Of a stretch of 64,000 bases of DNA, positions 18,165-60,455 are shown piece after piece. The position numbers were made by a program, and so were the translations under genes. Where the stretch lies: NCBI RefSeq assembly GCF_019278465.1, contig NZ_CP058983.1, forward strand, positions 1,735,501 to 1,799,500, in the 5' to 3' direction. The DNA comes from Tenacibaculum sp. AHE14PA (GTDB lineage Bacteria > Bacteroidota > Bacteroidia > Flavobacteriales > Flavobacteriaceae). A model generated the notes under the pieces. That model was not told the DNA's origin. It was given only the letters and a program-made list of their open reading frames with translations, and made no database searches. Position 1 is the stretch's first letter. Each line of letters starts with the position of its first letter.

Positions 18165-18237
18165 GGTGCCTTAGCTCAGTTGGTAGAGCAAAGGACTGAA
18201 AATCCTTGTGTCCCTGGTTCGATTCCTGGAGGCACCA
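18165..18237 (+). tRNA. tRNA-Phe (GAA), copy 1
   Basis: The 73-base sequence folds as a standard cloverleaf: acceptor arms GGTGCCT and AGGCACC with discriminator A, a D-loop with AGCTCAGTTGGTAGAGC, an anticodon loop CTGAAAA giving anticodon GAA, and a T-arm CCTGGTTCGATTCCTGG. No CCA is encoded. It is identical to the second copy and is transcribed from the promoter at 18109. Confidence 0.97.
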
Positions 18238-18295: not shown

Positions 18296-18368
18296 GGTGC
18301 CTTAGCTCAGTTGGTAGAGCAAAGGACTGAAAATCCTTGTGTCCCTGGTTCGATTCCTGGAGGCACCA
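18296..18368 (+). tRNA. tRNA-Phe (GAA), copy 2
   Basis: Identical over all 73 bases to copy 1, and separated from it by 58 bases of AT-rich spacer that is not a repeat of the upstream flank. An intrinsic terminator follows immediately. The two genes are probably processed from one transcript. Confidence 0.97.
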
Positions 18369-20066: not shown

Positions 20067-20084
20067 TGAATTTTTGTGAGGCTT

Positions 20085-20166
20085 GGCGTTAGGGATTGAA
20101 GTGACATCCTTTTTTTGAGGCACGAAAAAAAGATACAACGTAAAGCCCGACCTTTAGGTAACGCCC
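20085..20166. repeat. Structured intergenic repeat element with terminal inverted repeats
   Basis: The element is bounded by perfect 7-bp inverted ends GGCGTTA and TAACGCC. Inside, ATCCTTTTTTT and AAAAAAAGAT flank GAGGCACG and form an internal hairpin, and GCCCGACC lies near the right end. The region is less AT-rich than the surrounding intergenic DNA and has no reading frame of note. I recall elements of this design as dispersed repeats in other Flavobacteriia, but that cannot be verified here. It sits between two convergent genes. Confidence 0.6.
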
Positions 20167-51294: not shown

Positions 51295-52344
51295 TTATAA
51301 AATCAACATCGCATCTCCGTACGAGTGAAATTTATATTTTTCTTTAATTGCTTCTTGGTATGCTTCCATCATAAAATCGTGTCCTGCAAAGGCAGAAACA
51401 GTCATCATTAATGTTGATTTTGGTGTATGAAAGTTTGTAATCATACAGTTTGCAACACTAAAATCAAATGGAGGAAAGATAAATTTATTTGTCCAACCGT
51501 CAAATTCCTTTAACTTACGCTTAGATGTAATTGCAGATTCTGTTGCTCTCATTACAGTTGTACCAACAGCACAAACTCTTTTCTTTTTATCTAAAGCACT
51601 GTTAACCATATCTGCAGTAGCTTGCGTTACATTTATCTTTTCAGAATCCATTTTATGCTTTGATAAATCTTCAACCTCAACAGGATTAAAAGTACCTAAA
51701 CCTACATGTAACGTAGTTTCTGCAAAATCTACTCCTTTAATTTCTAAACGTTTCATTAAATGTTTAGAAAAATGTAAACCTGCTGCTGGTGCTGCCACAG
51801 CTCCTTCATGCTTTGCGTAGATTGTTTGGTAACGATCTTCATCTGTAGCCTCTACCTCACGCTTTATATATTTAGGTAATGGTGTTTCCCCTAACTTCAC
51901 TAATTTTTCTCTAAACTCTTCGTAAGGTCCGTCGTATAAGAAACGTAAAGTTCTACCTCTTGATGTTGTATTGTCAATAACCTCTGCTACTAAACTTTCG
52001 TCATCGCCAAAAAACAATTTGTTTCCGATTCTTATTTTTCTTGCTGGATCTACTAATACATCCCACAAACGGTTTTCAGCATTTAACTCACGTAATAAAA
52101 ACACTTCAATACGAGCTCCAGTTTTTTCTTTATTCCCGTACATACGAGCAGGAAAAACCTTTGTATTGTTTAGCATCATTACATCTCCTTCATCAAAATA
52201 ATTGATTAAATCTTTAAATAATTTATGTTCAATTTTTTGAGTATCTCTGTGTAACACCATTAAACGTGCTTCATCTCTATGCTCTGATGGATATTCTGCT
52301 AATAATTCATCTGGTAATTCAAAACTAAAATTCGATAACTTCAT
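51295..52344 (-). CDS. queA: S-adenosylmethionine:tRNA ribosyltransferase-isomerase QueA
   Basis: The 349-residue enzyme transfers the ribosyl part of SAM to preQ1 in tRNA, making epoxyqueuosine. The start [33 protein letters not shown], the motif [13 protein letters not shown], the [21 protein letters not shown] region and the [21 protein letters not shown] end are all standard. Length is typical. It is followed by its own terminator and preceded by aroA with a 64-base gap. Confidence 0.97.
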
Positions 52345-52408
52345 AAATCTTTTTTTCGTATGTGCAAATATACGATTTGGACATAGGCCTTGTCAAGTGA
52401 TTCTCCTT

Positions 52409-53641
52409 TTATTTTCCTTTAATCGTTTCTATTCCTACTTGTTGCATATCTTTCCAAAAATTACGATACGATTTAGTTACCACTTCGGCTTCTAAAATAA
52501 CAATTGGCGTCTTTAATGCTAACGGTGCAAATGCCATTGCCATTCTATGATCGTTATAAGTAGCAATCTCAATATTTTTTTTAATTTCTTCGGATGTTTT
52601 TAAGTGCAAACTTTCGTTGGTTACAGATATATCTCCACCTAACTTCGTTAATTCTTCTTTTAAAGCCTCTAACCGATCGGTTTCTTTTATTTTTAAGGTA
52701 TGTAACCCTGATAAATCACAAGCAACACCTAATCCAAAACAAGTTACTGCAATTGTTTGAGCAATATCTGGCGCATTTTTCAAATTCTCCGTTAAAATGG
52801 CTGTATTATGTAGTGCTTCTTTCGTTAAAACAATGGTATTTTCTTGAAACGTAGTTACAACTCCAAAATGATTATAAATTCTTGCTAAGCAGTTATCACC
52901 CTGTAAACTATCTTTTTTATAGGCTGATAATTTTACAGACGATCCTATTTCACTCAATGCAATTAACGAATAAAAATAAGAAGCAGAACTCCAATCTGAT
53001 TCTACTACGATATCTTGAGTAGAAACTTCAGATTGGTTTATAATAGTAATAATATTCCCTTCAAAACTTGCATAAACACCTATTTGATGTAACAAGGTTA
53101 ATGTCATTTTTATATACGGAACAGAAGTAATATTTCCTTTCAATTCAATTGTTAATCCGTTTTTTAAACTCGGTGCAATTAACATTAAAGCAGAAATATA
53201 CTGACTACTTACATTGCCATCAATAGCAACTTTAGCTATCAATAATTCTTTCCCTGTAATTTTTATTGGTGGATAGCCGTCTTTTTCTAAATACTCAATA
53301 TCAGCTCCTAAATCGCGCAGCGCATCTACCAAAATTTTGATTGGTCGATTATGCATTCTCTCGGATCCTTGTAAAACTTTCACAGCATCTTTTTTACTTG
53401 CAAAAAAAGCAGTTAAAAAACGCATTGCAGTACCTGCATGACCAATATCTGCAATTTCATTTTCTGACGACAACGCTTCTTGTAAATGATGTGTATCATC
53501 AGAATCTGATAAATTATGAATTGTAATATTCGGATATAATTGTTGTAAAATTAATAACCTGTTAGATTCACTTTTTGAACCCGAAATAGTTATTTCGGCA
53601 TTAATTTTAGTACCTTTTTTTGTTGCTAATTGTAAGTTCAT
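52409..53641 (-). CDS. aroA: 3-phosphoshikimate 1-carboxyvinyltransferase (EPSP synthase)
   Basis: The 410-residue enzyme transfers the enolpyruvyl group of PEP to shikimate-3-phosphate for aromatic amino acid synthesis. Motifs visible are ISGSKSESNRLLIL at the N-terminus (Lys and Ser/Arg binding), IGHAGTAMRFLTAFFA for PEP, ESDWSSASYFYSLIAL, the catalytic Asp region NAPDIAQTIAVTCFGLG, KETDRL and YNDHRMAMAFAPLAL. All expected active-site residues are present. It is about 15 residues shorter than E. coli AroA, as common in Bacteroidota. Confidence 0.95.
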   Translation of the reverse strand: MNLQLATKKGTKINAEITISGSKSESNRLLILQQLYPNITIHNLSDSDDTHHLQEALSSENEIADIGHAGTAMRFLTAFFASKKDAVKVLQGSERMHNRPIKILVDALRDLGADIEYLEKDGYPPIKITGKELLIAKVAIDGNVSSQYISALMLIAPSLKNGLTIELKGNITSVPYIKMTLTLLHQIGVYASFEGNIITIINQSEVSTQDIVVESDWSSASYFYSLIALSEIGSSVKLSAYKKDSLQGDNCLARIYNHFGVVTTFQENTIVLTKEALHNTAILTENLKNAPDIAQTIAVTCFGLGVACDLSGLHTLKIKETDRLEALKEELTKLGGDISVTNESLHLKTSEEIKKNIEIATYNDHRMAMAFAPLALKTPIVILEAEVVTKSYRNFWKDMQQVGIETIKGK

Positions 53642-53706
53642 TTATGTAGACTTCCTTATTTTATATCGATTGAAAATGACTTTTGATATTGAATTTAACA
53701 TTCATA

Positions 53707-53979
53707 CTATTTATTTTCCCAAGCATTATTCCAGCCTTTTCTTACAGCATGAAAAATTCTAAAAAAGAAACCAAAAACGAAAGCTTGAATTAAAATTCTT
53801 CTCCAATCGAAAGATATTCCTTCAAATAGCAAACTTGCAATAAAATTGGTGATAGCAAACATTAAAAACAATACTGGAACGTAAATTAACACATATTTAA
53901 TTAATGATACTTTGTGAATCAATTCCGTTTCTTCGTTAATATTTTTATTTAATTTATCTTCTAGCTTCTCTAAACCCAT
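53707..53979 (-). CDS. Small membrane protein, unknown
   Basis: The 90-residue protein has two hydrophobic segments (about residues 28-48 and 62-79) and an acidic, Lys-rich N-terminus. It lies three bases after the next small membrane protein gene and in the same direction as the MazG gene. No family is recognised. The tight order with its neighbour argues that the two proteins function together. Confidence 0.68.
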   Translation of the reverse strand: MGLEKLEDKLNKNINEETELIHKVSLIKYVLIYVPVLFLMFAITNFIASLLFEGISFDWRRILIQAFVFGFFFRIFHAVRKGWNNAWENK

Positions 53980-53982
53980 TAT

Positions 53983-54231
53983 CTATTTTGTTCTTTTATT
54001 TACCACATATATGGCATAAAAAATACTAACAGTTACTTTGGTTAACCAAAAACGTTTCCATTTTCCTTCTGAAAAATTAATAGTAAGTACAGTTTCAAAA
54101 TCCGCAGAAAACAAAGCGCCTCCACTATTTACTAATAATGAAAATATTGCGACAACCACTAAAAAAGGAATACCCACTTTAAGTACATTAATCCAAAAAG
54201 ATCCTTTTTGTATATTTTTAATAAGACTCAT
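53983..54231 (-). CDS. Small membrane protein, unknown
   Basis: The 82-residue protein has an N-terminal hydrophobic helix (about residues 15-33) and a weaker second hydrophobic stretch near the C-terminus, with TKVTVSIFYAIYVVNKRTK at the end. Its start directly abuts the stop of the MazG-like gene. It probably belongs to a three-gene unit with MazG and the 90-residue protein. Nothing indicates its role. Confidence 0.68.
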   Translation of the reverse strand: MSLIKNIQKGSFWINVLKVGIPFLVVVAIFSLLVNSGGALFSADFETVLTINFSEGKWKRFWLTKVTVSIFYAIYVVNKRTK

Positions 54232-54558
54232 CTATTTTAATTTTTCGTTGTTGTGATGACGATCGTGATCACGTTTTGTTTTTATATCTAATTTTTTATC
54301 GAAAGCTTCTTGAAGATTAATTCCTGTTTGATTTGCTAAACACAGTACCACAAACATAACATCTGCTAATTCTTCTCCTAAATCTTTATTTTTATCGCTC
54401 TCTTTTTCACTTTGTTCGCCATAACGACGTGCGATAATTCTTGCTACTTCTCCTACTTCTTCTGTTAATTGCGCCATGTTTGTTAATTCGTTAAAATAAC
54501 GAACTCCATGATTTTTAATCCAATTATCAACTTCTTTTTGAGCGTCTTGTATATTCAT
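54232..54558 (-). CDS. MazG-like nucleotide pyrophosphohydrolase
   Basis: The 108-residue protein matches the small MazG/dUTPase-like all-alpha hydrolase group. The metal-binding Glu/Asp motifs are EEVGEVARI and DLGEELADVMFVVLCLA, giving the ExxE-ExxD arrangement. These enzymes hydrolyse nucleoside triphosphates, probably abnormal ones, to monophosphate and pyrophosphate. A His-rich charged tail (KRDHDRHHNNEK) follows. It begins the small operon with the two membrane proteins. Confidence 0.88.
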   Translation of the reverse strand: MNIQDAQKEVDNWIKNHGVRYFNELTNMAQLTEEVGEVARIIARRYGEQSEKESDKNKDLGEELADVMFVVLCLANQTGINLQEAFDKKLDIKTKRDHDRHHNNEKLK

Positions 54559-54651
54559 TTTTACTTCAGAGTTTAAAATTCAAATATAAATATTTCTTTT
54601 GGGCTAATTAATTCGCCATGGCGGATTTTTTCTATTCTTTCCTGCTTTAAC

Positions 54652-55869
54652 TTAATTTAATCCTTCTAACTTTTCTTTTTTAACAACGCTGCTTAACATC
54701 AATAAGAAAAACAACCCTATTATCGACATAAAAGTAATAATCCACCATGTTTTATCAAATCCCAAAGCAGCTACTAATTGCATTCCTGAATTATGTCCAA
54801 AAATATGTGCCAAAGAAAAAGCAATACTATAATATGCCATATATTCTCCTTGATTTCCCTTTTTTGCACGCTCCATTACAAAAGCATTAGAAAACGGGAA
54901 AGCAATCATTTCGCCAATAGTCATAAATAACATTCCTATTACTAAAATACCAATCCAACCTGTTAAGTTTAGTACTAAAAAACTTATCCCTGTTAAAAAT
55001 AAACCTACAAACATTAAGCGTTCTTTTGAATACTTACTTTCTTCTAACCACTTAATTAATGGCATTTCCAATAAAAAGATTAAAAAACCATTCATTCCCA
55101 TTAACAAACCAATCTCTAACTCAGATAAATCATGAACGTTTTCATAATACAATGGCATTGTTGAAAAGTATTGTAAAAACACAAATCCGAAGATAAACAT
55201 CGCTACAAAAAACACCCAAAAAGCCTTGTCAGAAAACACCGAAACCGGATTATCAACTTTCACCTCATCTAAAACTTTTGCCTTTTTAGGATTCAACACT
55301 TTTATAAGTAATAACGTTGCTAGAATACACGTAATACCATCAACCCAAAACAAACCACTATAACTTAAAGTAGTAATTATAATTCCGCCAACTGCTGGCC
55401 CAGCAGAAAAACCTAAGTTAATTGCCAAACGGATTAAAGTTACCGAACGTGTTTTATTTTCTGGCTTACTGTAAGCACTTAAAGCTACAAACATTGCGGG
55501 CCTAAAAGCATCAGCAACTAACATCACCAAAAAGATACCAATACAAAAACCGTAAAATGTAGTTACAAACTGCAAGGCTAAAAACATTAAACCGGTTAAA
55601 AACAAACTTGTTTTCATTACTTTGTACGAACCTATTTTATCAGTTAGCTTTCCTCCTAACCAAGATCCTAATACAGAACCTAAACCAAAACAACTCATAA
55701 TCCAAGCTACATCTTTTAGTGTGAAGTCTAAATCTTTGGTTAAATACAATGATAAAAACGGAATTACCATCGTACCTGCTCTATTTATTAGTGTAATTAG
55801 AGCAAGCCACCAAACTTCGGTTGAAAGCCCTTTAAACGTCTCTAAATAATTAAAATATAGTTTTTTCAT
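54652..55869 (-). CDS. MFS transporter (drug-efflux type)
   Basis: The 405-residue transporter starts at ATG 55869 (MKKLYFNYLETFKGL) and has about 12 hydrophobic segments. The loop 2-3 motif is LGSWLGGKLTDKIGSYKVMK, the MFS signature A, and the region after helix 4 has RLAINLGFSAGPAVGGII, resembling motif C of drug antiporters. Substrates cannot be named. The upstream region (55905-56043) carries a short reading frame and a terminator arranged as a leader-peptide attenuator, which suggests that the gene is induced by something that disturbs translation. An in-frame start at 55908 would lie inside the terminator and is rejected. Confidence 0.88.
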   Translation of the reverse strand: MKKLYFNYLETFKGLSTEVWWLALITLINRAGTMVIPFLSLYLTKDLDFTLKDVAWIMSCFGLGSVLGSWLGGKLTDKIGSYKVMKTSLFLTGLMFLALQFVTTFYGFCIGIFLVMLVADAFRPAMFVALSAYSKPENKTRSVTLIRLAINLGFSAGPAVGGIIITTLSYSGLFWVDGITCILATLLLIKVLNPKKAKVLDEVKVDNPVSVFSDKAFWVFFVAMFIFGFVFLQYFSTMPLYYENVHDLSELEIGLLMGMNGFLIFLLEMPLIKWLEESKYSKERLMFVGLFLTGISFLVLNLTGWIGILVIGMLFMTIGEMIAFPFSNAFVMERAKKGNQGEYMAYYSIAFSLAHIFGHNSGMQLVAALGFDKTWWIITFMSIIGLFFLLMLSSVVKKEKLEGLN

Positions 55870-55904
55870 ACTGTTTGGTTTAGTAGTTATTGATGCTCTT
55901 AAAA

Positions 55905-55938
55905 ACAAAAAAATCCGACTGTGAAGTCGGACTTTTTA
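55905..55938 (-). terminator. Intrinsic terminator upstream of the MFS gene (attenuator)
   Basis: On the minus strand the stem has arms AGTCCGACT and AGTCGGATT with a TCAC loop, preceded by A and followed by seven U residues. It lies 36 bases before the MFS start codon. Its 5' arm is complementary to eight bases in the upstream short reading frame. Confidence 0.88.
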
Positions 55939-55965
55939 TAATTGATATATTTTATATTTGAATAA

Positions 55966-56043
55966 TCATAATACATAAGTAGCCCGACATGTTCCGTATC
56001 TCACGGTCCATTTACATTGCTTATATGTATTAAAAATTGCCAT
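55966..56043 (-). CDS. Probable leader peptide of the MFS gene (25 residues)
   Basis: ATG at 56043 opens 25 codons to TGA at 55966. The peptide begins MAIFNTYKQCK and ends RYGTCRATYVL, with two Cys and two Arg, one Trp and three Tyr. About 28 bases after the stop is the terminator at 55905-55938, and then the MFS gene. Bases 55988-55981 on the minus strand (GTCGGGCT, within codons Cys19-Arg20-Ala21) are complementary to the terminator 5' arm AGTCCGAC over eight pairs with one G-U. A small hairpin CCGT-GAGAT-ACGG lies at 55994-56006 in the same frame. No family is recognised; it is inferred to be a leader peptide. Confidence 0.6.
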   Translation of the reverse strand: MAIFNTYKQCKWTVRYGTCRATYVL

Positions 56044-56168
56044 TTTAGTATTAATTGAAGCGTAAAACTATAAAAAAAAGAAATAGGTTTTACAAAACAC
56101 TATTTTAAAACCTTATTTCATATTGATTCTAAATAAATTACTCTTAATTACTTGTTCGTTTCAAAGTA

Positions 56169-56193
56169 GTTCTCGACTCCACTCGAACTGACA
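56169..56193. repeat. Copy of the TCGACTGCGCTCGA repeat family
   Basis: GTTCTCGACTCCACTCGAAC followed by TGACA lies between the MFS leader and the cyclase gene. It matches the copy inside hemW (57847-57871) at 23 of 25 bases. Confidence 0.7.
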
Positions 56194-56211
56194 ACTATTA
56201 TAAATTTATTC

Positions 56212-56961
56212 TTATTGAATTTTATACAAAATAGGTTTACTTGGAGTTGCATCATTTTCAAAAGGGGCAATCATTAAATTTAAAAAATATGCTCCGTCTT
56301 TTATTGATTCTTTTACATAGATAAATTCTGTAATAGTTGCATCAAAACGAATTTCATTTGCGGTATTCCAAAAAGCATTGTGCGCTAATAATTTACCTTC
56401 ATCTTTTTCTTTATCTACCGAAGGTAAATCTATTAATAAATGCTTCACTCCTATTTCTTTTAAATAAGCAGCGGCTGCTTCTAATAAGTAAGGCGGGTTT
56501 GTATTTGAATATCGAGTGCTTGTTTTTTTATCAGAATTTGGCAATGTTCTTATTACAACAGCTTCTCTTACTTTATTTTTTAAAATTGCATGTAATTGAC
56601 CTTTTGTAATTACAGAATCTCCATGTTCTAACTCCTTTGGGGTTATTGTAATAACCTCAGCTAAAAAAAAGAATTTATTTAAATTTTTATTTACAGAATG
56701 TACTTGTTTTGTAATATGCCCAACACACTCGGTATGTGTTATATGCGCATGCGGATTAAAAGAGATATTATTAAAATTAACATCTGCCCCTTTAGAAACA
56801 CTACCAACCCAATTACCTTCTTTTACTGGCTTAATTTCTGGTTCACCAACATACCATGCATTGATGTTTTCTTTTAAAACATCTATTGAAATAGAAATAT
56901 CTAAAGGTTTTGATAAATCTATTCTATGTTTTTCTGAATTGTAAGTTATCTCTGCAATCAT
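56212..56961 (-). CDS. Cyclase family protein (kynurenine formamidase-like)
   Basis: The 249-residue protein has a cyclase/kynurenine formamidase fold. The metal motif usually written HxGTHxDxPxH reads HITHTECVGH here, so the ligand Asp is a Glu and the Gly and Pro are replaced, although three His remain. The later segments VREAVVIRTLPNSDKKTSTRYSNTNPPYLLEAAAAYLKEIGVKHLLIDLPSVDKEKDEG and LAHNAFWN fit the family. It might hydrolyse an amide or cyclic ester. It is 7 bases from hemW on the same strand. Confidence 0.75.
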   Translation of the reverse strand: MIAEITYNSEKHRIDLSKPLDISISIDVLKENINAWYVGEPEIKPVKEGNWVGSVSKGADVNFNNISFNPHAHITHTECVGHITKQVHSVNKNLNKFFFLAEVITITPKELEHGDSVITKGQLHAILKNKVREAVVIRTLPNSDKKTSTRYSNTNPPYLLEAAAAYLKEIGVKHLLIDLPSVDKEKDEGKLLAHNAFWNTANEIRFDATITEFIYVKESIKDGAYFLNLMIAPFENDATPSKPILYKIQ

Positions 56962-56968
56962 GTTTTTA

Positions 56969-58171
56969 TTATTTAATTATAAATAATTCTGAAGCCAAAC
57001 CGTCTGCCAAAAACTTTCCTTTTGGAGTTGTTTTTAATACCCTGTCGTCATTACGAGGAGACAACGACGAAGTAATCTGATTAAAACCTAAAGATTGCTC
57101 CGTTTCTCTCGCAATGACGAGTAAACCTTCATCTATAAACTTTTTTGACGAGATTAGTAATTCCTCTTTAAAATCTTCATCAATTTTATTTAACGATACG
57201 CCCCAAATAGTTCGTAAGCCCGTCATTAAATATTCGTTAAACTGATCTTCTTTTGATAATTCTTCTACTTCATTCGGAAGATTACCTTGCTGAAGTTCCT
57301 TTATATATTTTGCGTTATTAGCGACATTCCAACTACGATGCGTTTTACTAAACGAATGCGCAGACGGACCGATACCAATATATTTTTTACCCAACCAATA
57401 ACTTGTGTTGTGTTTCGAAAAGTAATCCGCTTTTCCGAAATTTGAAATTTCGTAATGTATAAATCCGTTTTTAGCTGTTTCTGCTACTAAAATATCAAAA
57501 TGTTCTTTTGCTACCGTTTCATCAGGTGCTGGATATTTTCCTTGACTAATAAAACTAGCCATTGCTGTTTTTGGCTCAACTGTTAATGCGTAGCTTGAGA
57601 TATGATTCACGCCAAAACCGAACGCTATTTGTAAATTCTCTTTCCATCGTTCGTTACTCATATTCGGAACACCGTAAATTAAATCGACCGTAATATTATC
57701 AAAATGGCGGGTCGCCATAGATAAACATTCTTTTGCCTCTTTAGCCTTATGCGCACGATTCATACTTTTTAAATCTTCTTCAAAAAAAGATTGCACGCCA
57801 ATACTTAATCTGTTTATTCCTGCTAATTTGTATTCTTCAAAAATAGTTCTCGACTCCGCTCGAACGGACAAATCAGATAAATCATCCGGATTGGCTTCTA
57901 AAGTAATCTCGGGGTTTTCTATTACTTTATAATTCTGATGAACTGCCTTTAACAAGGTTTCTATTTCTTCTTTCGATAATAAAGACGGAGTTCCGCCACC
58001 AAAATAAATAGTTTCTATGGTTTCGTTTGCTAATTCTTCTTTTCTGATTTCAAGCTCTTTTACCATGCACAAAACCAAGTCATCTTTCCTTTTTAAAGAA
58101 GTAGAAAAATGGAAATCGCAATAAAAACATGCTTGCTTGCAAAACGGTATGTGTAGATAGATTCCTGCCAA
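56969..58171 (-). CDS. hemW: HemW-like radical SAM heme chaperone, with two repeat insertions
   Basis: This 400-residue protein belongs to the HemN/HemW group and has CxxxCxxC at 11-18 (CKQACFYCDFHF), FGGGTPSLL and EITLEANPDDLS. The lack of the extra features of oxygen-independent coproporphyrinogen oxidase suggests HemW, a heme chaperone. Two parts are foreign. After NPDDLS, the residues VRAESRT derive from the 25-base repeat at 57847-57871. Near the C-terminus, VIARETEQSLGFNQITSSLSPRNDD derives from a palindromic repeat at 57045-57120. Both are read in frame, and the core motifs around them are intact, so the protein is probably still made. Confidence 0.85.
   Translation of the reverse strand: MAGIYLHIPFCKQACFYCDFHFSTSLKRKDDLVLCMVKELEIRKEELANETIETIYFGGGTPSLLSKEEIETLLKAVHQNYKVIENPEITLEANPDDLSDLSVRAESRTIFEEYKLAGINRLSIGVQSFFEEDLKSMNRAHKAKEAKECLSMATRHFDNITVDLIYGVPNMSNERWKENLQIAFGFGVNHISSYALTVEPKTAMASFISQGKYPAPDETVAKEHFDILVAETAKNGFIHYEISNFGKADYFSKHNTSYWLGKKYIGIGPSAHSFSKTHRSWNVANNAKYIKELQQGNLPNEVEELSKEDQFNEYLMTGLRTIWGVSLNKIDEDFKEELLISSKKFIDEGLLVIARETEQSLGFNQITSSLSPRNDDRVLKTTPKGKFLADGLASELFIIK
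57045..57120. repeat. Palindromic repeat inside the hemW coding sequence
   Basis: The left arm TCGTCATTACGAGG...AGTAATCT and the right arm AGATTGCT...CGCAATGACGA are imperfect inverted repeats separated by a short spacer. One arm matches the repeat at 1493-1521. The repeat codes for about 25 residues near the hemW C-terminus and leaves the frame open. Confidence 0.75.
57847..57871. repeat. TCGACTGCGCTCGA-family repeat inside the hemW coding sequence
   Basis: GTTCTCGACTCCGCTCGAAC followed by GGACA is identical at 23 of 25 bases to the intergenic copy at 56169-56193. It lies within hemW codons just after NPDDLS and does not interrupt the frame. Confidence 0.8.
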
Positions 58172-58177
58172 AATAAA

Positions 58178-58732
58178 TTACTTTTTTACTCTTTTTTCAT
58201 TCTGCTTTACAAAACTTGCCCAACCAGTATAATTTTTACCACCTACAACCCTTCCTGAATTATAATGATGACAAACCGCTGCGGCTAAACCATCAGTTGC
58301 ATCTAAATTTTTAGGTAAGGTCTTTAAATTCAATAAGGATTTTAGCATTAAAGCAACTTGCTCTTTACTAGATTTTCCGTTACCTGTAATTGCCATTTTA
58401 ATTTTTAGTGGTGCATATTCTGTTACTGGTATTTCGCGTGACAATGCTGCTGCCATCGCAACTCCTTGTGCGCGTCCAAGCTTTAACATCGATTGTACAT
58501 TTTTACCAAAAAAAGGTGCTTCTAAAGCTACTTCATCAGGTTTATACGTATCTATCAATTCAATTGTACGTTCAAAAATTAACTTTAGTTTTAAGTAATG
58601 ATCGTCGTATTTTTTTAAAATTAACTCATTCATTTGAACGAATTCCATTTTTTTTTCCACCACTTTTATAATTCCGAATCCCATGATAGAAGTTCCGGGG
58701 TCAATTCCTAAAATAATTTTCTCTGTCTTCAA
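58178..58732 (-). CDS. ruvC: Holliday junction resolvase RuvC
   Basis: The 184-residue nuclease resolves Holliday junctions by paired cuts with RuvAB. The RNase H-like acidic residues are readable in GIDPGTSIMGFG (Asp), DEVALEAPFFGKN (Glu) and NLDATDGLAAAVCHHY (Asp-Asp). Length is normal. It ends 6 bases before hemW, in the same direction. ruvA and ruvB are not in the window. Confidence 0.95.
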   Translation of the reverse strand: MKTEKIILGIDPGTSIMGFGIIKVVEKKMEFVQMNELILKKYDDHYLKLKLIFERTIELIDTYKPDEVALEAPFFGKNVQSMLKLGRAQGVAMAAALSREIPVTEYAPLKIKMAITGNGKSSKEQVALMLKSLLNLKTLPKNLDATDGLAAAVCHHYNSGRVVGGKNYTGWASFVKQNEKRVKK

Positions 58733-58835
58733 ATTTTAATTTCTATAACACTAAACTAATCAATTAAATATTAAGTGATCATCATAATAAGTAAGGTGTA
58801 GTTCTAATACTAGCTCAGAATGATGCTAAAAACTA

Positions 58836-60455
58836 CTAAACTTCCAGTGAAGTAAACTTAAATGTATTTCCGTCAAACAATCCTTTATCAGATAGTTTTA
58901 ACGCTGGTATTACCAACAGTGCCATAAAAGATAAACTCATATATGGTGCTCGTAATTTACTTCCAATTTGTTTTGCCATTGTATCTAATTCTGCATACGC
59001 TTTACCTATTTCTTCTGCGGGTTTATCAGACATGATTCCCGCTACAGGTAATGAAACTATTTTTTCTTCGGATGCCGTTACTGCACAAACTCCACCTTTA
59101 TTAGCTATCAATAAATTTACGGCCTTACATATAGCTTCATCAGAAACACCGACTGCTATTATATTATGAGAATCGTGCCCAACCGAACTAGCAATTGCTC
59201 CTTCTTTTAATCCGAAGTTTTTTATAAATGCGATTGATGGCTCAGCATTTTTATAACGATTTACAACCGTCATTTTTAATACATCAGTTTCTGTGTTAGA
59301 AACTAAATTACCCTCTTTTATCAAAGCATCCGCTTCAACTTCATTCGTTACTAGTTCACCATCTAAAGCTTCAATAACTCTAATTTTTGTTGCGGTAGAT
59401 TTAAATTCAAAATCAACTACTTCCTTTTTATCTGTATTAAAATTATTCAACACTTTAAAAGGAACTGACTTTACAAACGATTTTCCGTTTTCAGCAATCA
59501 ACTCTCCGTTAATATAGGTTTGTAAAACATTAAAACTCTTTAAATCTTTAACTACAATAAAATCCGCATCATCCCCTTGTTCTAACAAACCAACATCTAA
59601 ATTATAGTGTTTTACAGGATTTATACAAGCTGCCTGTAAAACTTTAAAAACATCAATGCCTTTTGCTACCGCACGCTCACATAACTCATTCAAATGACCT
59701 ACTAATAAATCATCTGGATGTTTATCATCAGAGCAAAACATCATATTTTCGTAATGATGAGGTAATAAATCAATCAATGCTTCGAAATTTTTAGCAGCAC
59801 TCCCTTCACGAATAATTACTTTCATTCCTTTTTGAAGTTTCTCTAAAGCCTCATCATAACTAAAGCATTCGTGGTCGGTAGAAATTCCTGCCGATATATA
59901 TTTAGTAACATCATCACCTCTTAAACCTGGCGCATGACCGTCAATAGGTTTATTATTATTTTTTGCATGCTGAATCTTTTTTAAAACCTCTTCATCATCA
60001 AACAAAACCCCAGGATAATTCATCATTTCTGCTAAATATTTGATATCAGGATTTTCCATCATCAATTTAATATCCTCAGAATCGATAATTGCGCCTGCAC
60101 TTTCAAAAGATGTTGCGGGTACACAACTTGGTGCACCAAAATTAAATTTTAACGGAACTTTCTTTCCGTTTTCAATCATAAAATCTACTCCTTTTACCCC
60201 TAAAACATTTGCTATTTCATGCGGATCAGAAACAGTGGCAACCGTACCATGAACAACTGCTATTTTAGCAAATTCTGAAGGTACTAACATTGAACTCTCA
60301 ATATGAATATGTGCATCTACAAAACCAGGAATAATATAATTCTCTACAGCGTTATTTTTTTCCCTTACTGCTGTTATCTTCCCGTTTTCAACCTCAACTT
60401 CTCCTTTGTAGATTCGTTTGTTTTGTATGTCAACTATATTTCCTTGTACAATCAT
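58836..60455 (-). CDS. ade: Adenine deaminase
   Basis: From ATG 60455 this is a 539-residue amidohydrolase that converts adenine to hypoxanthine in purine salvage. The metal-binding motif [45 protein letters not shown], the ligand-bearing CFSYDEA and the [14 protein letters not shown] motif typical of bacterial adenine deaminases are present. The frame runs open to 60509, but those 18 codons ([12 protein letters not shown]...) overlap the pckA terminator and are unlikely. It is separated from pckA by that terminator, so it probably has its own promoter. Confidence 0.94.

Follow-up and report, generated by a model that had tools for sequence, protein, structure and literature searches.

A 25-codon reading frame and an intrinsic terminator precede an MFS transporter gene in a Tenacibaculum-like genome, and both recur before its orthologues, where sequence comparison indicates that the end of the frame and the terminator have changed in step. 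The leader is probably a ribosome-mediated transcription attenuator of the MFS gene, answering to impaired translation.

Architecture of the locus

Coordinates refer to the window, the whole stretch of 64,000 nucleotides that was analysed, and the locus is read on its minus strand. On that strand the element TAGTTTTA, the 25-codon frame, the intrinsic terminator and the MFS start at 55869 follow one another in this order; the cyclase gene upstream has its end at 56212, which leaves 275 bases to the terminator. The features are as follows.

56063..56070, minus strand: -7-like promoter element TAGTTTTA (TAnnTTT[G/A]), from pattern match and orthologue comparison
56043-55966, minus strand: leader ORF, 25 codons plus TGA, product MAIFNTYKQCKWTVRYGTCRATYVL; ATG at 56043-56041, TGA at 55968-55966
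56024..56032, minus strand: P1 5' strand UAAUACAUA of the leader hairpin, from the fold, letters checked
55994..56006, minus strand: P2 apical hairpin CCGU-GAGAU-ACGG, from sequence and fold
55981..55988, minus strand: putative antiterminator segment GUCGGGCU (DNA letters GTCGGGCT), codons 19-21, from pairing with the terminator 5' arm and co-evolution
55969..55977, minus strand: P1 3' strand UAUGUAUUA, codons 23-25, from the fold, letters checked
55908..55937, minus strand: intrinsic terminator AAAAAGTCCGAC..GTCGGATTTTTT, then a T tract, from the terminator scan
55933-55926, minus strand: terminator 5' arm letters AGTCCGAC, antiterminator partner
54652..55869, minus strand: MFS transporter gene, 405 aa, proposed target (Pfam MFS_1, E 1.1e-54)

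A sequence-only reading of this DNA had proposed a leader-peptide attenuator of the MFS gene, and conservation of the frame, the terminator and their pairing supports it. Direct reading of the letters confirms the coordinates that it gave for the 25-codon frame (56043-55966), finds an ATG at its MFS start (55869) and CCGT-GAGAT-ACGG at its small hairpin (55994-56006), and shows that codons 19-21 (55988-55981), which it had paired with the terminator 5' arm, can indeed do so (GTCGGGCT against AGTCCGAC). The terminator lies where it had been placed, but the nine-pair stem has to be revised: the scan gives a stem of 13 pairs (four of them G-C) at 55937-55908, with a 4-base loop and a T run after it. 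This terminator ranks first among the 10 terminator-like sites in 52000-60000, where shuffled sequences yield 3.7 ± 2.0.

Conservation of the short frame and its flanking signals

Orthologues of the MFS gene were found in 110 of 166 genus genomes at E ≤ 1e-40, and 30 of these loci were kept; with the best 80 of 365 named relatives they made up 110 MFS loci, which gave 90 non-identical upstream regions (alignment A1). A second alignment, A2, holds 59 selected sequences. All 90 upstream regions carry, equally far from the terminator, a frame of 23-28 sense codons that opens with ATG, against 2.2% of dinucleotide shuffles, and this ATG is invariant (90/90). The corresponding interval is free of stops in frame 0 in all 90 regions, in frame +1 in 7 and in frame +2 in 7; after thinning by similarity to 22 sequences, the three counts are 22, 4 and 1. 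In-frame gaps are multiples of three in 88 of the 90 rows of A1 (the exceptions are L060 and L065) and in 59 of 59 in A2, and the spacer between stop codon and terminator, 23-34 nt long, occurs in all three phases among the 90 regions. The conservation of the short frame on which the sequence-only reading depended is thus strongly borne out.

The encoded peptides differ widely among relatives. In 33 independent close pairs, 58 codon changes are synonymous where 42.3 ± 5.5 are expected, a modest excess, and the conservation of the peptide appears modest and in part due to RNA pairing. The Tenacibaculum finnmarkense-type leaders L035 and L036 (the named loci L051 and L052) and L055 (T. piscium) carry a quite different peptide, MKIYTTYKAYEYADTIGVFRTFCVV, with an antiterminator GGACTTTTT to the same arm.

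A terminator is present in 90 of the 90 regions. TAnnTTTG is the Bacteroidetes promoter consensus, and all regions but L055 (89 of 90) have TAnnTTT[G/A] 25-40 nt 5' of the leader ATG, against 8.9% in shuffled sequence; between the terminator and the MFS gene it is found in 17 of 90, at scattered positions, against 12.2% shuffled. A TTTG at 56096-56093 was spotted by eye. Rfam 15 gave no match at gathering score at the locus and none credible at a permissive threshold, the best sub-threshold match reaching 27.4 bits against a gathering score of 54. Taken on the sequence comparisons, the arrangement of frame, terminator and candidate antiterminator is beyond chance.

Co-evolution of the antiterminator with the terminator

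Of the 90 leaders, 86 can form six or more of the eight antiterminator pairs and 38 can form all eight. In A1, 88.9% of the antiterminator cells are paired, compared with 20-48% when the partner is slid; the shuffle control gives 88.3% and is mildly exceeded, 8 of 500 shuffles matching the observed value, and two pairs show double changes, a count reached in 86 of 500 shuffles. The value lies barely above its shuffle control because the arms hardly vary in A1. RNAalifold recovers the terminator alone as a consensus structure in A1 and nothing in A2.

Addition of 81 diverged leaders from a covariance model brought the set to 171, in 128 of which pairing of the distal frame to the terminator arm has a rank ≤ 0.05 relative to the leader's own mononucleotide shuffles. 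Co-evolution was assessed on 69 thinned leaders carrying 34 different terminator arms. Pairing between the distal frame and the leader's own arm has a mean energy of -9.35 kcal/mol, versus -7.04 with foreign arms, and the own arm pairs better in 61 of the 69 leaders. None of 5,000 permutations reached the observed own-arm sum, whereas 3151/5000 did so in the control with the proximal frame. Matched changes in frame and arm are seen, for example, in L147, L158, L178, L187, L191 and L217. On this sequence evidence the antiterminator is co-evolving with the terminator arm, so that the pairing called for by the earlier reading is also found conserved among relatives.

Leader hairpin

Folded by itself, the leader forms a long hairpin, P1/P2, whose basal helix links the early codons with the end of the frame. 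Over 69 leaders the mean z score of this fold is -2.27, with negative values in 67 and values below -1.65 in 45. As RNAalifold returned the terminator alone or nothing, P1 was judged by counts of named pairs and by duplex energies. In 59 selected sequences, from which nine leaders of another arrangement were left out, 87.4% of the P1 cells are paired, compared with 18-54% in slid versions and 85.2% in shuffles, none of 500 of which reach the observed value. Double changes in P1 (5 pairs, 13 cells) do not exceed those of the slid versions (2-6 and 5-15, respectively). Duplex energies place P1 at rank ≤ 0.05 versus mononucleotide shuffles in 94 of 171 leaders; P2 varies in sequence and length among relatives. 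P1 crosses the antiterminator, which allows competition among three structures of the kind known from classical attenuators.

Ribosome position and leader folding

A 30-nt ribosome footprint was masked at each codon and the transcript folded up to the terminator 5' arm. The mean pairing between arm and leader over 90 leaders is 0.86-0.92 with the P site at least 13 codons before the stop codon, and falls to 0.71 at -12, 0.37 at -11 and 0.10 at -10. When the A site holds the stop codon, the values are 0.38 (90 leaders) and 0.40, a partial block; leaders such as L114 have about 0.7 at the stop, and recovery near the stop is seen in L114 and L089. According to this model, a stall in codons 1 to ~14 would leave the antiterminator free, and a ribosome in the last ten codons would mostly block it.

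Equilibrium antiterminator pairing without a ribosome averages 0.78 in the 90 leaders and 0.67 in the 69 thinned ones. Because the antiterminator forms without a ribosome and is blocked only in part at the stop codon, the OFF state would have to rest on kinetics and occlusion. For an untranslated leader, the modelled equilibrium corresponds to ON, but P1/P2 is the first to be transcribed, and the kinetic outcome may be OFF.

Three leaders of prephenate dehydratase genes from other members of the family (L207, L214 and L225; for example MNVLITFNYYRFFFFKERNEVVV, then a terminator) were found as weak matches of the covariance model and carry runs of Phe, Tyr and Trp around codons 7-15. The modelled pairing of L207 and L225 persists as far as codon 14 and is gone at codons 15-16, where their Phe/Tyr run ends; in L214 it drops at codon 15 and recovers late in the frame. 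Two of the three pheA leaders, all from the same family, thus behave like the MFS leaders in the folding model.

The transporter and the candidate signal

The nearest solved relative of the MFS protein is NorA, a drug exporter (E 1e-8, over residues 32-230 only), and the MFS translation contains AGPAVGG, an instance of the antiporter motif GPxxGG. Among the 25 of 32 NCBIfam matches listed, all were below cut-off. The protein is, on its sequence, a probable drug-efflux pump.

Relative to nucleotide shuffles, Thr, Val, Cys, Trp, Gln and Tyr are over-represented in codons 3-14 of the leaders; Leu, Pro, His, Phe, Asp and Glu are scarce. Thr occurs there 138 times in 69 leaders, against 65.8 ± 7.6 in the shuffles, and is present within codons 6-15 of 63 of the 69. 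In 65 leaders, Ala, Ser and Thr make up 45% of residues one codon ahead of the permissive-window edge, compared with 9-34% across the 13 remaining offsets. By contrast with shuffles, the +x+ macrolide motif in codons 6-15 is not enriched (6 of 69 leaders versus 10.8 ± 2.7), nor do adjacent Ser/Thr pairs rise above them (33 versus 30.6 ± 3.2); aromatic triplets, PP and residue runs show no enrichment in the 69 thinned leaders. Of these 69, 62 use every residue at most three times within codons 3-15, and no residue is common to all leaders. Ala/Ser/Thr contexts favour stalling by chloramphenicol and linezolid. The available part of one report describes the action of both drugs as context-specific (PMC13410324). 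On the simplest reading, the element would be a sensor of impaired translation.

Distribution and association with the MFS gene

A covariance model built from the MFS upstream regions has matches in 163 of the 299 family genomes with a cut-off of E ≤ 0.01, and in 116 when E < 1e-5 is required; some of the searched genomes are training rows, in which matches are expected by construction because of how the model was built. The 116 strong matches were picked by hand and the length of the list checked. All but one (115 of 116) lie directly upstream of the MFS gene, as placed by tblastn for 88, by coordinates for 26 and separately for one. The sole exception (genome G289, L277, 525-665) has an intact-looking leader and terminator and no MFS gene within 1.7 kb behind them, which suggests loss of the MFS gene. 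When 109 loci with model matches were searched with tblastn, 93 had the MFS gene; the other 16, which include the three pheA leaders, are all weak matches (E ≥ 1e-5).

The MFS gene itself is found in 172 of the 299 family genomes at E ≤ 1e-90. About 59 genomes have it and no strong leader match, and 38 of these were examined: a terminator is present in 25 and a small frame as well in 18, using a looser window that shuffles of the set of 90 pass in 10%, while 20 are without a qualifying frame and 13 without a terminator. The leader therefore seems to extend beyond the reach of the model, and other MFS loci seem to have lost it or never had it. At the level of the order, 230 upstream bases were read by eye in 24 loci (L233-L256). 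By eye, L233, from the same family, and L234, from family f3, seem to have a diverged leader, and L235 gives a weak model match (E 2.7e-4). No leader was seen by eye in these 230 bases in 16 loci of genus g128, nor in L236 and L253-L256; the MFS gene is also present in family f5. The leader is found in Flavobacteriaceae and perhaps in one neighbouring family.

Proposed mechanism and alternatives

RNA polymerase would start just 5' of the leader and make a short mRNA with the 25-codon frame, which we infer to be translated. Three competing structures are then proposed: the P1/P2 leader hairpin, linking early codons to the end of the frame; the antiterminator, formed by codons 19-21 and the terminator 5' arm; and the terminator itself. 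If translation runs to the end of the frame, the ribosome would sit on or near the antiterminator segment, allowing the terminator to form and end transcription ahead of the MFS gene. If the ribosome is instead held at about codons 1-14, it would open P1/P2 and leave the antiterminator segment free, and the terminator arm would therefore be captured and the pump transcribed. The likely signal is impaired elongation, caused most simply by a ribosome-targeting compound that the pump may export.

How specific that signal would be is a matter on which two readings differ. Tentatively, the leader may be a sequence-plastic sensor of translation status, its peptide nearly free and its frame, length and RNA pairing kept, which reports whether or not ribosomes get to the end of the frame. 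If equilibrium folding is right, such a sensor would be ON by default when the leader is not fully translated, and blocks of initiation as well as of elongation would then induce one dedicated pump in many of the family's members. It is possible, although we consider it somewhat unlikely, that the leader instead encodes a drug-specific arrest peptide on which one antibiotic class stalls ribosomes at defined residues, for example Thr/Ser codons 12-14, as in MefAL/MsrDL. The Thr enrichment in codons 3-14, the Ala/Ser/Thr share of 45% before the permissive-window edge and the nature of the target, an MFS transporter whose closest relative of solved structure is NorA, would fit this, but the leader peptides are widely variable, neither Ser/Thr pairs nor +x+ are enriched, and the residue bias is partly a result of RNA pairing.

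An amino-acid-starvation attenuator of an amino acid or metabolite transporter would share its architecture with the pheA leaders of the same family and could draw on the Thr, Val, Cys, Trp, Gln and Tyr that exceed expectation in codons 3-14, and on the Thr that 63 of the 69 leaders have within codons 6-15; the lack of a residue run in 62 of 69, and of any residue common to all, makes this improbable. A structured RNA switch (a riboswitch or protein-binding leader) with an incidental frame could account for the strong leader hairpin and for a constraint on the RNA that seems to exceed that on the peptide. We regard it as very improbable: the frame is kept in 90/90 and in 22/22 thinned sequences with the other frames mostly closed, gaps come in threes, the locus has no Rfam match at gathering score, and no conserved unpaired core resembling an aptamer was seen. 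The distance of 275 bases to the cyclase gene end at 56212 would suit a plain terminator of that gene accompanied by a short frame that arose by chance. This is scarcely credible, as a conserved promoter-like element lies between the two, the antiterminator co-evolves with the arm and 115 of the 116 strong matches stand before the MFS gene; the conservation of the frame and the co-evolution of the arm already refute it for the most part.

Ribosome-mediated attenuation of the MFS gene would make the leader a widespread cis-regulatory element without an Rfam match, in which the co-evolution of codons and terminator is unusually clear. On this view, a so far unstudied chromosomal pump of the Flavobacteriaceae, many of whose host genera are marine to judge by their names, is predicted to respond to ribosome-targeting compounds. 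The leader would offer a direct handle on the natural substrate of the pump and a system in which to examine how transcription and translation are coupled in this phylum.

Relation to known systems

In attenuators of the trp/his type, three mutually exclusive RNA structures are combined with a coding leader. The MFS leader is alike in both respects and differs in having no run of control codons and a transporter as its target. The pheA-type Phe/Tyr attenuators (L207, L214 and L225) resemble it in their 23 sense codons, in a similar distance to the terminator and, in two of the three, in the loss of modelled pairing at codons 15-16, but they have a dense Phe/Tyr/Trp run and precede a biosynthetic operon, whereas the MFS leader is without a run.

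Nearest in logic is MefAL of mef(E)/mel (mefA/msrD), which the available parts of two reports describe as an MFS efflux gene under leader-peptide transcription attenuation (PMC4335068, PMC10314930). The system proposed here would share with it an MFS efflux gene, a short leader peptide and ribosome-mediated transcription attenuation. As far as those parts describe it, MefAL has 8 residues with a +x+ macrolide motif and travels on mobile elements, whereas the leader described here has 23-28 codons without +x+ enrichment and occurs in the genomes of Flavobacteriaceae and perhaps one neighbouring family. Leaders also precede vmlR, lmo0919 and similar ABC-F genes, according to the sections available of one of these reports (PMC10314930), and the uORF of TopAI-YjhQ in E. 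coli senses stress from several classes of ribosome-targeting antibiotics, according to those of another (PMC12121999); from what these sections describe, both use a short frame as a sensor of translation stress, as proposed here, and differ in that they belong to other genes in other phyla. In F. psychrophilum, leader-peptide attenuation has been reported for amino-acid operons, in the portion available of that report (PMC9723704). A literature search, with Table S7 of PMC9723704 (64 structured 5' regions) outside its scope, found no description of the present leader.

Other features of the window and genome

The genome itself (2.82 Mb, one contig) holds no second copy of the leader, the six short matches obtained falling on a palindromic repeat. 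Right after the cyclase stop codon lies a palindrome-like repeat, GTTCGAGTGGAGTCGAGAAC (56188-56169, minus strand), one of 16 genome matches with at most two mismatches, against 0 for a reversed-pattern control. Between contig positions 1512496 and 1512977, four other matches of GTTCGAGTGGAGTCGAGAAC follow one another at intervals of exactly 154 bases. Elsewhere in the window, the structured RNA motif Flavo-1 (RF01705) is found at 20081-20156 (plus strand), and two tRNA matches of equal score, 58 bases apart at 18165-18237 and 18296-18368 (plus strand), possibly represent a duplicated gene.
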